Shown piece after piece: positions 6,783 to 46,143 of a stretch of DNA of 64,000 bases. Source of the stretch: Allostreptomyces psammosilenae (GTDB taxonomy: Bacteria > Actinomycetota > Actinomycetes > Streptomycetales > Streptomycetaceae). The notes beneath the pieces are model-generated. The model searched no databases and was not told where the DNA came from. It saw only the letters and a program-made list of their open reading frames with translations. Position 1 is the first letter of the stretch; each line of letters opens with the position of its first letter. The DNA lies in NCBI RefSeq assembly GCF_013407765.1, contig NZ_JACBZD010000002.1, forward strand, positions 568,001 through 632,000, written 5' to 3'. The translations under genes were made by a program, and so were the position numbers.

Positions 6783-7538
6783 TCAGACGGTGACGCCGTG
6801 CGAGGCCAGGTAGGCCACCGGGTCGACGGCGGAGCCGTAGGTGGGGGTGGTGCGGACCTCGAAGTGCAGGTGGGGTCCGGTGGAGTTGCCGGTGGAACCG
6901 GACAGGCCGATCACGTCGCCCGCGGAGACCTGCTGGCCGACCGAGGCGCCGAGCGAGTTCAGGTGGCCGTACAGGATGTACTTGCCGTCCTCGCCCTGGA
7001 TGATCACGTTGTTGCCGTAGGAGTCGTCCCAGCCGGCGAAGACGACCTCACCGCTGGTGACGGTGTGGATCGGGGTGCCGGTGGGGACGGCGAAGTCCTG
7101 GCCGCTGTGGGTGTTGGCCCAGTTGCTGCCGGCCTGCGCGAAGCTGGCGGTCAGCGTGTAGGAGCCCTCGATGGGCAGGACGTAGTCGCTGCCGGCCGCC
7201 GTGGTGGCGGCGGTCGCGGTGGCGGCCGTCGTGGTGGTGGGCGCGGTGTTGCCCACGCCGGCGGCGGCCACGTCCTGGTTGGCGATGTGGTTCAGGTGGG
7301 CGACGTGGCGCAGGTGCTCCACGTGCCGCACGTGCTCGGTGTGGCGCACGTGCTCCAGGTGGGCGACGTGACGCTCGTGACGGCTGGGCGCGTCGGCGTT
7401 CGTGTGGGCCAGCGCGGTGCCGGCCAGACCCGCCGTCGCGGCGGCCACCATGGTCACGGCGGCCAGGCCACGGGCGGAGTTCCGCTTCAGGCTACCGAGG
7501 GACAGGCGGCCGGCGGTGGTGGTGCGGGTGTTCGACAC
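6783..7538 (-). CDS. Secreted M23 metallopeptidase with (His-x-x)11 tract
   Basis: A 251-residue exported LytM-type peptidoglycan endopeptidase. The signal segment is at residues 22-44 (GLAAVTMVAAATAGLAGTALA). The catalytic domain, about 120-251, has HSGQDFA (zinc His and Asp), a YGHLNS strand and GPHLHFEV (HxH). Between them, residues 54-84 carry histidine at every third position, eleven in a row. A Thr/Ala-rich linker joins this tract to the enzyme. The GTG at 7538 is chosen because it directly precedes the signal peptide; AGAGG lies 11 nt upstream, a long spacing. The frame remains open to 7730 but that stretch lacks signal-peptide character. It likely cleaves peptide cross-links in wall turnover. 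Confidence 0.93.
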   Translation of the reverse strand: MSNTRTTTAGRLSLGSLKRNSARGLAAVTMVAAATAGLAGTALAHTNADAPSRHERHVAHLEHVRHTEHVRHVEHLRHVAHLNHIANQDVAAAGVGNTAPTTTTAATATAATTAAGSDYVLPIEGSYTLTASFAQAGSNWANTHSGQDFAVPTGTPIHTVTSGEVVFAGWDDSYGNNVIIQGEDGKYILYGHLNSLGASVGQQVSAGDVIGLSGSTGNSTGPHLHFEVRTTPTYGSAVDPVAYLASHGVTV

Positions 7539-7604: not shown

Positions 7605-8083
7605 TGGGGAGCCTCCGCGAGGGGGGCGCCCGTCCGCCGGGGGACGGTGTCGGTCCGCCCGGTGGCGAACCACCGCGGACTGACGAGATCCAGTCGTAAC
7701 AGGGAACGAAATGACGGCAAAGAGCCCCATTTACTACCCCATGTCGTACATCGCCCCCGGTGGTCGGGGGGTGTGGGGGCGCCTCGGAGCGGGCGCCGAG
7801 GGGGGTGGCGCGAGCCCCGCCGGATCCCGGTTCCGGCCGTGCGCACCGCTCTGACCTGGGGTTCTGTCATCCGGTCAGGGTGGTGGGGCGCCTGGTCGCG
7901 GGCAGGGCGCGAAGAAGATTGAGATTTGTCCGTTTTGTGGGTTTAAACGGCTACTACGGTAGATAGTCCAGCTCTGATGGGTTGTGAGCGGCATCACCGG
8001 CGAAGTCGTGCTTCCCGGGAGGTTTACCGGGGTTCCGGACCGGAAAAACTGCCGCAGCCCACCGCCGAGGGCGCCGCCCCGGC
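7605..8083. other. Non-coding region between M23 and RNA-ligase-like genes
   Basis: No credible coding sequence. The right half is unusually AT-rich for this genome around 7915-7975, including TTTAAAC, and may hold the distal promoter of the M23 gene. On the plus strand TGTCCGTTTTGTGGGTTT (7927-7944) matches 17 of 18 bases of a motif upstream of rocD (10123-10140). No c-di-AMP (ydaO) riboswitch core was found, although that riboswitch often precedes wall-hydrolase genes in actinomycetes. Confidence 0.5.
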
Positions 8084-18375: not shown

Positions 18376-18547
18376 GGTGGTCCTCCCCCGAGGAAACGCG
18401 GGCGGGGCCGGCTCCCGCGCCGTGTCCGGCCGGCCGCCCCCGTGATGAGCGTCACAGGTTAGCAGTGGTACGACCCGTTTCGTCCACTTGGTGCGGTGGT
18501 GCCCGGCGCATACCGGCGCACACCGGGGCGCGGCGGAGCGTCCACGG

Positions 18548-44232: not shown

Positions 44233-45483
44233 ATGCAGACGAACGCCTCCCCGAACGCCTCCGCGGACAGCGCCGCGCCCGCTGCCTCCGCCAACGCGAC
44301 CGGCACCCCCGGCGCCACCGACACCATCGCCAACGCCGCGCCGCCGGTCGGCGGCCAGATCGTGCGCCCGGCCGCCCGTGCCGCCGGCGCCCCCGCCGCG
44401 CCCGAGCAGGTCCGCCGTGCCCCCAAGGTCTCCCTCCACGACCACCTGGACGGCGGCCTGCGCCCCGGCACCGTCGCCGAACTCGCCGCCGAGATCGGCT
44501 ACGCCGACCGCCTGCCCACCACCGACCCCGAGGAACTCGGCCGCTGGTTCCGCGACGCCGCCGACTCCGGCTCGCTGGAGCGCTACCTGGAGGGCTTCGC
44601 CCACACCTGCGCGGTGATGCAGACCCGCGAGGGCCTGATCCGGGTCGCCGCCGAGGCGGTGGAGGACCTGGCCGCCGACGGGGTCGTCTACGGCGAGCTG
44701 CGCTACGCCCCCGAGCAGCACCTGGAGCGCGGCCTCAGCCTCACCGAGGTCATCGAGGCGGTCAACGAGGGCTGCCGGCTCGGCGAGCGCCGCGCCGCCG
44801 AGGCCGGCCGGCGCATCCGGGTCGGCGTGCTGGCCAGCGCCATGCGCCAGGCCAAGCGCTCCCGGGAGATCGCCGAACTGGCCGACGCCTACCGGGAGCG
44901 CGGCGTGGTGGGCTTCGACATCGCCGGACCGGAGAACGGCTTCCCGCCGGCGCTCCACCAGGAGGCGTTCGACTTCCTGCGCTTCAACGGCGACCACATC
45001 ACCATCCACGCCGGCGAGGCGTACGGGCTGCCGTCCATCCGCGAGGCCCTGCACCGCTGCCACGCCGAGCGGATCGGCCACGGCGCCGCCATCGTCGAGG
45101 ACATCACGCCGATCGGCGAGGGCGGGGCGGAGGGCTACCGGCTCGGCCGGGTGGCCTCCTGGGTGCGCGACAGCCGCACCTGCCTGGAGCTGTGCCCCAC
45201 CTCCAACCTGCAGACGGGCGTCTGCTCCAGCTACGCGGAGCACCCGCTGGGGCTGCTGGCCTCGCTGGGGTTCCGGGTGACGGTCAACACCGACAACCGG
45301 CTGATGAGCGGCACCTCGCTGAGCGAGGAGTTCATCCACATGGTGGCGGCCTTCGGCTGGTCGCTGGCCGACATCGAGCGGATGACGGTGGACGCCGCGG
45401 AGAGCGCCTTCCTGCCGCTCGACGAGCGCCGCGAGCTGATCGAGGAGGTCATCCGCCCGGGCTTCGCCGCCCTGGCCGACTGA
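44233..45483 (+). CDS. add: Adenosine deaminase
   Basis: 416 residues; hydrolyses adenosine and deoxyadenosine to inosine and deoxyinosine. Zinc-site motifs are in order: VSLHDHLDGGLRP (HxH), ITIHAGEAYGLPSIREAL (catalytic Glu in HAGE), RIGHGAAI (catalytic His) and VNTDNRLMSGTSLSEEF (Asp ligand). The first 60 residues are an Ala/Asn/Pro-rich extension typical of streptomycete copies. Transcription appears leaderless, with the palindromic operator upstream. Functionally it belongs with cdd, deoA and deoC. Confidence 0.96.
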   Translation: MQTNASPNASADSAAPAASANATGTPGATDTIANAAPPVGGQIVRPAARAAGAPAAPEQVRRAPKVSLHDHLDGGLRPGTVAELAAEIGYADRLPTTDPEELGRWFRDAADSGSLERYLEGFAHTCAVMQTREGLIRVAAEAVEDLAADGVVYGELRYAPEQHLERGLSLTEVIEAVNEGCRLGERRAAEAGRRIRVGVLASAMRQAKRSREIAELADAYRERGVVGFDIAGPENGFPPALHQEAFDFLRFNGDHITIHAGEAYGLPSIREALHRCHAERIGHGAAIVEDITPIGEGGAEGYRLGRVASWVRDSRTCLELCPTSNLQTGVCSSYAEHPLGLLASLGFRVTVNTDNRLMSGTSLSEEFIHMVAAFGWSLADIERMTVDAAESAFLPLDERRELIEEVIRPGFAALAD

Positions 45484-45488
45484 CCCAC

Positions 45489-45739
45489 GCCCCGGCGGCC
45501 CCGGGGCCTGGGCCTCGGGCCTCGGCTCTCGGGCCCTGGCCGTGGCCCCGGGCCCGACCCGCCGCCCCGACCCCTGGGCCCGGGGCCGGCCCTCGGGCCT
45601 GGCTGACTGACCAGCGCCCCGGTGGCCCCGGGGCTTGGACCTCGGGCCTCGGCTCTCGGGCCCTGGCCGTGGCCCCGGGCCCGACCCGCCGCCCCGACCC
45701 CTGGGCCCGGGGCCGGCCCTCGCGCCTGGCTGACTGGCC
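45489..45739. repeat. Tandem duplication, period 127 bp
   Basis: Segments 45489-45612 and 45616-45739 are nearly identical, differing at a handful of bases, directly behind add. Confidence 0.85.
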
Positions 45740-46143
45740 CGGCCCCCGGGCCTGGCCGACTGGCTCGCAGCTCAGGCGGCTTCGGGGCTTGGGCCTCGGC
45801 TCTCGCCGAGGCCCCGGGCACTCGGGCCCTGGCCCTGGAGCCGCCGGGCCCTGGCCCTGGCAGCCGGGCCCGGGCGCCCCGCCGCCCCGGCTCGCTGGGC
45901 GCCGGGCTCCCGCCCCCGAGCCTCTGCTCCCAGCTCTCGGCCCCGGCCCTTGGGTCCTGGCCCTCGGCCCTGGCCCCAGTTCTCGCCCCCCGGCTGTCGC
46001 CGCCCGGCCCTCGGCCCTCGGCCGCAGTTCTCGCCGCCCGGCCCCGGCCACGCCCGCCCCGCTCCTGCTCCCACCCCGCCCCGCTCCTGCCCCCACCCCG
46101 CCCCGCCCGCCCCGGCCAGCGGCGGGGGCGGGCGGGGCGGCTT

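Follow-up and report, generated by a model that had tools for sequence, protein, structure and literature searches.

A modular histidine tract at three-residue spacing on two families of secreted peptidoglycan hydrolases in a few Streptomycetaceae genera, with a possible metal- and pH-dependent role in the wall

Why should a secreted M23 endopeptidase carry eleven histidines at every third residue ahead of its catalytic domain? The question was raised by the gene at 6783-7538 on the minus strand of the window, the 64-kb stretch of DNA that was analysed. This gene has a GTG start codon at 7538 and a stop codon at 6783-6785, and it encodes 251 amino acids. The ORF list also contains a 315-aa frame that begins at an in-frame ATG at 7730, and this start was judged by eye to be less likely because the signal-like stretch begins only after 7538. 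The original prediction of eleven consecutive His at exact three-residue spacing was confirmed in the translation, in which the tract occupies residues 54-84 (7287-7379, minus strand). Its placement of the tract between signal peptide and catalytic domain was also right: the signal-peptide-like N-terminus, residues 1-44 (7407-7538, minus strand), which ends in GTALA before HTN, was recognised by eye and aligned with paralogues L002 and L003, and the M23 catalytic domain was assigned to residues 143-240 (6819-7112, minus strand) from Pfam, the alignment and Foldseek. The His residues of the whole protein are at positions 45, 54, 57, 60, 63, 66, 69, 72, 75, 78, 81, 84, 144, 158, 192, 223, 225 and 247. 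When residues 45-115 (71 residues) were shuffled 200,000 times, the longest run of His at spacing 3 was 7 and was reached 6 times, and such runs did not exceed 4 in the remaining five frames of the window.

The enzymes that bear the tract are ordinary, and the tract is the new part. The window protein matched Pfam PF01551 with an E value of 3.9e-32 (110.7 bits, compared to a cut-off of 28.7), and residues H144, D148, H192, H223 and H225 were invariant in a 40-row alignment; we take these to be the zinc ligands of the M23 motifs HxxxD and HxH, plus the catalytic His. The M23 peptidases StM23, lysostaphin and LytM were among the best Foldseek matches of the window model. The top match was 9gy1, which was also the best PDB sequence match of the protein (5.4e-27). 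None of the 37 PDB sequence matches covers the tract, with 36 of them starting at residue 103 or later and 6rk4_A starting at residue 80. The tract alone gave no PDB sequence match at E values up to 10, and residues 53-92 had no above-cut-off match to a curated family in the Pfam and NCBIfam scans.

A search of the own genome with the whole window protein gave 13 matches. The nearest M23 paralogues, L002 and L003 (69% and 68% over the domain), have the same signal-like N-terminus and catalytic domain and are tractless, with a gap in the alignment opposite window residues 49-97. These two genes (G000:C1:1886248 and 1147912) are nearly identical and lie 0.74 Mb apart on a different contig from the window, and their start regions, upstream sequence plus 60 coding bases, are 87% alike across 571 bases. 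The same genome encodes L009, a secreted-looking protein that aligned with the window protein over residues 20-120 only (47% identity, E 1.8e-15). L009 has both domains of the SLT/APF family (PF01464, NF052397), namely an SLT domain (Pfam, E 7.5e-9) and an aggregation-promoting-factor C-terminal domain (NCBIfam, E 9.3e-37), and no M23 match was found in the domain scans. Its tract, SAHEKHVRHLEHIRHLEHVRHVQHLNH, is identical to that of the window protein at 23 of 36 residues with no gap and at 75 of 108 bases. A two-row profile made from these two tracts found these two proteins alone at low E values in the own genome. The third match (E 8.1) was a 159-aa open frame that is not hydrolase-like, and it was rejected.

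The occurrence of the tract on L009 bears directly on what it could be for. SLT enzymes need no metal and are not metalloenzymes. A proposed connection between the tract and the zinc of M23 enzymes is therefore not supported, as the same kind of tract occurs on SLT/APF-type hydrolases, and the supply of catalytic zinc is unlikely as its general role. It could still be proposed that the tract supplies zinc to the M23 active site or protects that site, for example by buffering an inhibitory second zinc of the kind known from LytU (PMC5519744), and the corresponding family His are present in the window protein. Given the SLT proteins with the same kind of tract and the M23 paralogues L002 and L003 without one, we regard this as improbable.

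The tract recurs among relatives. A 12-row tract profile at E values up to 0.002 matched 24 of 394 family (Streptomycetaceae) genomes, and in 6 of the 394 (G000, G003, G010, G011, G024 and G033) the tract is in secreted-looking SLT or M23 genes. These six genomes belong to four genera, of which g1, g4 and g11 are represented by one genome each in the sample and g12, Peterkaempfera, by three that all match. Peterkaempfera has tracts on both SLT and M23 proteins; G033 is Peterkaempfera griseoplana, whose gene is also found in NZ_LIQR01000149.1. The M23 tract proteins are the window protein, L271 (G024), L272 (G011) and L308 (G033), the last of which ends at a contig end before any catalytic domain and was classed as M23 since its N-terminus matches L271 and L272. 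The SLT tract proteins are L009, L075, L076, L089, L077, L093 (the same gene as L224), L109 and L116, and three further SLT proteins (L110, L112 and L118) have short or irregular tracts. Ten tract proteins of relatives matched L009 across the domain, with no M23 match in those scanned; when the Pfam SLT model was run on two of the ten, L077 was above the cut-off and L076 was just below it (20.5 compared to 21.3 bits). In the relatives the tracts sit between signal peptide and catalytic domain in SLT and M23 proteins alike, and they open with the consensus S-A-H-[QE]-x-H-V-x-H, to which exceptions exist. An orthologue comparison had been proposed as a check of the periodicity; it was borne out by M23 and SLT proteins of other genera, and it failed for the nearest M23 paralogues, L002 and L003.

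Other searches defined the limits of this distribution. An earlier two-row profile at E values up to 0.01 matched 69 of the 394 family genomes, and 29 of its loci were read, with most weaker ones left out. The 12-row profile matches in the other 18 family genomes, including two second matches, were simple repeats or unrelated frames, none of which resembled a secreted wall hydrolase by eye; one was a ribokinase-like frame with an HTA repeat. Two overlapping samples, of 394 genomes from the class and 396 from the phylum, were searched with profiles and yielded no tract genes outside the own genome; matches in 14 other genomes of the class search and in 2 others of the phylum search were read and rejected. 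In the tract-based search of named genomes, 24 stretches were matched and none was confirmed by tblastn. A DNA pattern scan gave at least 119 loci (L145-L263), and among the matches listed six (L148, L179, L180, L224, L232 and L241) had at least five His at spacing 3 in some frame, with one tract gene, L224 of P. griseoplana, among them.

These searches also bear on whether the tract is a reading artefact or a simple DNA repeat like the (HLR)n and (HVR)n arrays of streptomycetes, since such arrays occur in several genomes and match the tract profile. The tract, however, lies in frame within intact secreted hydrolase genes, and in relatives its codons have diverged while the His are conserved. 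We hold this explanation to be refuted by the tract genes of relatives and give it hardly any credence. The arrays themselves have 9-base units that read as (HLR)n, (HVR)n or (HLP)n in one frame (L050, L052, L053, L055, L057, L073 and others, in several genomes of the streptomycete family), and they mimic the tract in profile searches. L398 (G247:C109) is a ribokinase-like frame that opens with an HTA repeat, which gives a non-wall protein a three-residue His period in phase with a simple DNA repeat. L054 (G193:C1:165112-165210) is a membrane-protein-like frame with MGHAAHAQHMGHIGHISHMGHISHMGHMGH, rich in Met and His at spacing 3, which looks copper-related by eye and has no sign of a wall hydrolase. 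Within the window, a 127-bp tandem repeat (2.2 copies, 93% matches) is present at 45471-45746 amid dense short GC-rich repeats.

In the open-licence PMC literature, covering also the topics of APF-type enzymes of Streptomyces, zinc control of LytU and His-rich metal helices, no description of a His tract on wall hydrolases was found, and a word search of the retrieved text of an M23 review (PMC9662197) did not return 'histidine-rich'. In summary, the tract is real, conserved within a small clade and modular, and as far as these searches of the open-licence PMC literature show it is undescribed.

The trees imply more than one gain or loss of the tract. Among 44 M23 domains placed in a tree, the window protein grouped with the tractless L002 and L003 (support 100/97), while L271 and L272 formed a separate clade (100/100). 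This tree requires the tract label to have changed at least twice, and none of 200 bootstrap trees had only one change. At least three changes were forced in an SLT tree of 46 rows, nine of them labelled tract-bearing after L089 and L112 were dropped as duplicates over the compared part. The rows of both trees were picked from search matches, so that these counts are not frequencies; the branch of L009 is long, and gain and loss look alike in such trees. The M23 changes fit repeated acquisition of the tract. Because the tract closest to that of the window protein, among six compared, is the L009 tract from the same genome, we read the tract as a module that probably moved between enzymes. This modularity is further supported by its presence with two unrelated catalytic domains in one genome, and again in Peterkaempfera.

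The tract could alternatively be a passive helical spacer that holds the catalytic domain off the membrane or wall, with the His arising only incidentally as the repeat grew. At the place where the tract would be, an Ala/Lys/Glu-rich stretch is present in many other SLT paralogues, the Peterkaempfera M23 tracts shade into Ala-rich repeats, and the DNA under the window tract is a loose repeat with an 18-bp period and 76-78% matches. The His columns, however, are more conserved across species than the residues between them. In five pairs (window protein and L009; L271 and L272; three Peterkaempfera SLT genes compared mutually), identical His columns numbered 9 of 11, 7 of 7, 9 of 9, 9 of 9 and 9 of 9, and identical non-His columns 14 of 25, 13 of 25, 16 of 23, 17 of 23 and 16 of 23; these are not independent comparisons, and an indel led to the exclusion of L308. 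Several His codons in these pairs differ by silent CAC/CAT changes at the third position. We therefore think it unlikely that the tract is only a spacer.

The spacing is kept in a similar way. Neighbouring His were three residues apart in 104 of the 120 cases counted, which came from 13 of the 15 tracts, with L112 (a duplicate of L110) and the irregular L118 omitted. The other 16 cases are phase breaks with spacings of 1, 2, 6, 7 or 15, and the M23 tract of L308 is one triplet shorter than those of its relatives with the phase kept. Within the H-x-x-H steps, Val or Leu filled the first x in 62 of 111 and Ala or Asn the second in 63 of 111. The periodicity is a conserved feature and no accident, so that this part of the earlier proposal was supported: from one relative to the next the His columns, and for the most part the three-residue step, are retained, and variation is greater at the remaining positions, as would suit a response to metal or pH. 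A recent expansion of the DNA repeat had also been suggested, and this is at most partly right. Hexapeptide units may be local additions, but the tract looks old because it is present in four genera with diverged codons. As judged from the aligned sequences, the conservation of the His and of their spacing speaks against a chance origin, as it does against a DNA expansion of purely recent date.

AlphaFold2 (40 rows) predicted one helix at residues 53-92 (7263-7382, minus strand), followed by an unstructured linker and a confident M23 domain. Mean pLDDT along the helix was 86 (residues 51-60), 73 (61-70), 66 (71-80) and 62 (81-90), values to which few alignment rows reaching the tract contributed. 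The linker, residues 93-116 (7191-7262, minus strand), is rich in Ala and Thr and has no predicted structure, with pLDDT below 50 at 94-106 and 108-116. For L224, the SLT protein of P. griseoplana, a single-sequence model gave helix pLDDT values of 84, 94 and 89 over residues 41-70, with an overall value of 51.7 and a poor remainder. The tract is thus predicted to be one alpha-helix in both architectures, about 40 residues long in the window protein. In ideal alpha-helix geometry the Cbeta distance is 5.6 A from i to i+3 and 6.4 A from i to i+4, and the His step round the rod by -60 degrees. The hydrophobic moment of the tract was 0.15 at 100 degrees per residue and 0.59 at 120 degrees, so a 3-10 helix would render it amphipathic; both predictions are alpha-helical.

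The computed charge of residues 53-92, with assumed pKa values, rose from +0.2 at pH 8 to +7.4 at pH 6 and +11.1 at pH 5, and a similar rise was obtained for three other tracts. This raises the possibility of a pure pH switch with no metal, in which the tract would be nearly neutral above pH 7 and a cationic rod below pH 6, and would bind teichoic or teichuronic acids and so hold the hydrolase at an acidified wall. Such a switch would be useful with either catalytic type. Acidic and basic residues are balanced within one in 11 of the 12 tracts counted, which means that His dominates the charge change. A pH switch, however, needs His content and not placement at every third residue, which is what the spacing count shows, and the L076 tract has five acidic and no basic residues and a charge of -4.7 at pH 8. 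We consider the pure pH switch possible but doubtful.

The explanation that we prefer, tentatively and with somewhat less than even confidence, is that the tract forms an N-terminal His-ladder helix, a module found on secreted peptidoglycan hydrolases in a few genera of the Streptomycetaceae, and that metal and pH act through it to set the retention of the hydrolase. The exact His spacing favours metal, while the balanced fixed charges in 11 of 12 tracts fit a pH switch equally. His at i and i+3 on an alpha-helix would be near enough to share one divalent metal ion, and within the wall, at neutral pH, the ladder may load several Zn or Cu ions. The metal-loaded ladder could then cross-link the enzyme with itself or with wall ligands. 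If the pH drops, the His would be protonated and the metal let go, and the helix would become a cationic rod drawn to anionic wall polymers. Local metal and pH would in this way govern where the hydrolase is located and how strongly it is held, whatever its active-site chemistry. From this we infer that the tract functions in divalent-metal-dependent, pH-tuned retention or gating of hydrolases in the wall. The phase breaks in some tracts count against a strict metal geometry. The tractless closest paralogues and the restriction to six of 394 family genomes also count against this explanation, since wall hydrolases generally manage without the tract.

The surroundings of the gene gave few indications. 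No Zur-like site was found in the window within 3 mismatches of the consensus, and an Rfam search for an upstream riboswitch was empty for the window stretch and ten related loci. The nearest neighbours, named by eye as a MerR-type regulator, a dehydrogenase, an RNA-ligase-like protein and TrpS, include no recognised metal gene and offer no clue; like the lack of a Zur-like match, this counts against the preferred explanation.

A CRP-like palindrome, GTGATGCCGCTCACA, is located at 7983-7997 on the minus strand, 459 bp upstream of the start codon. It is an exact GTGAN6TCACA palindrome, which we take to be a CRP-type motif. The window contains two such exact palindromes compared to 0.12 expected, and 2 of 100 shuffles reached that number. 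The second (18442-18456) precedes a 687-aa ORF on the minus strand by about 66 bases and lies beside an sdhB-like gene (names by eye). Upstream stretches were compared for 14 M23/SLT genes, comprising 11 tract genes and the tractless L002, L003 and L108. The exact palindrome was present in nine, seven with the tract and two without, and a palindrome within one mismatch was present in all 14, compared to 51 of 1400 first-order Markov shuffles; several of the stretches are homologous, so that these are not independent counts. L009 and L108 have weaker palindrome matches only, at other distances. From sequence, the putative CRP-like site goes with the hydrolases as such, whether or not they carry the tract. 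In addition, ACCGAT[TA]GAGG occurs just before the start codon of L109, L116, L093, L075, L089, L076, L077, L271 and L272, in three genera, and a second shared block further up, of the TGTTACGACTGG or GCTAAGA types, was seen by eye in some of those genes, in the window and in L003.

According to a review (PMC5693915), the S. coelicolor Crp regulon includes the germination-active wall hydrolases SCO5466 and RpfA; the present genes have putative CRP-like palindromes upstream. A study ties germination to copper export (PMC6414726); a link of the tract to copper is speculation. It is conceivable, though we think it rather unlikely, that we are dealing with a sensor-tether of an undescribed, swappable kind: a helical Cu- or Zn-loading His ladder that links metal and pH in the wall to where and when the wall is cut, for example during germination, in which streptomycete spores export copper and Crp turns on wall hydrolases. 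If this is true, the transfer of one such helix from one enzyme to another with different chemistry would bring several hydrolases under one environmental control.

How actinomycetes restrain their secreted wall hydrolases once these have left the cell is an open question. The conserved His ladder on two unrelated hydrolase families points to a common metal or pH control that is independent of catalysis, and if the preferred reading of metal- and pH-set retention holds, the tract would also serve as a genetically encoded anchor to the wall whose hold depends on metal and pH. The tract is short, and this makes it testable by deletion, His replacement and transplantation.

Several known systems resemble the tract in part. 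The His-rich membrane helices of the clavanin/LAH4 type are amphipathic alpha-helices. A pH-triggered membrane-active helix of this kind, directed against other cells or the own membrane, would fit the richness of the tract in His and Leu/Val/Ala and its charge switch near pH 6. The tract is, however, not amphipathic as an alpha-helix, with its moment of 0.15 at 100 degrees per residue, and every accepted tract is followed by a wall-hydrolase domain, except that of L308, where the contig ends first; we judge this explanation very improbable. A precedent for control of M23 enzymes by zinc and pH through His is LytU, in which a second, inhibitory zinc is reported to be bound through the catalytic His in a pH-dependent manner (PMC5519744). 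The streptococcal Pht proteins are similar to the tract proteins in that they are surface proteins with repeated His motifs, and these histidine-triad motifs bind zinc (PMC3842936). The HxxHxH motif given there is absent from the window tract, in which the His are at spacing 3 only, and residues 53-92 are predicted to be helical and not a three-stranded beta unit. Pht proteins carry HxxHxH in a beta-strand unit and pass their zinc to AdcAII (PMC3842936), whereas the window protein is a hydrolase whose HxxHxx tract is predicted to be helical.
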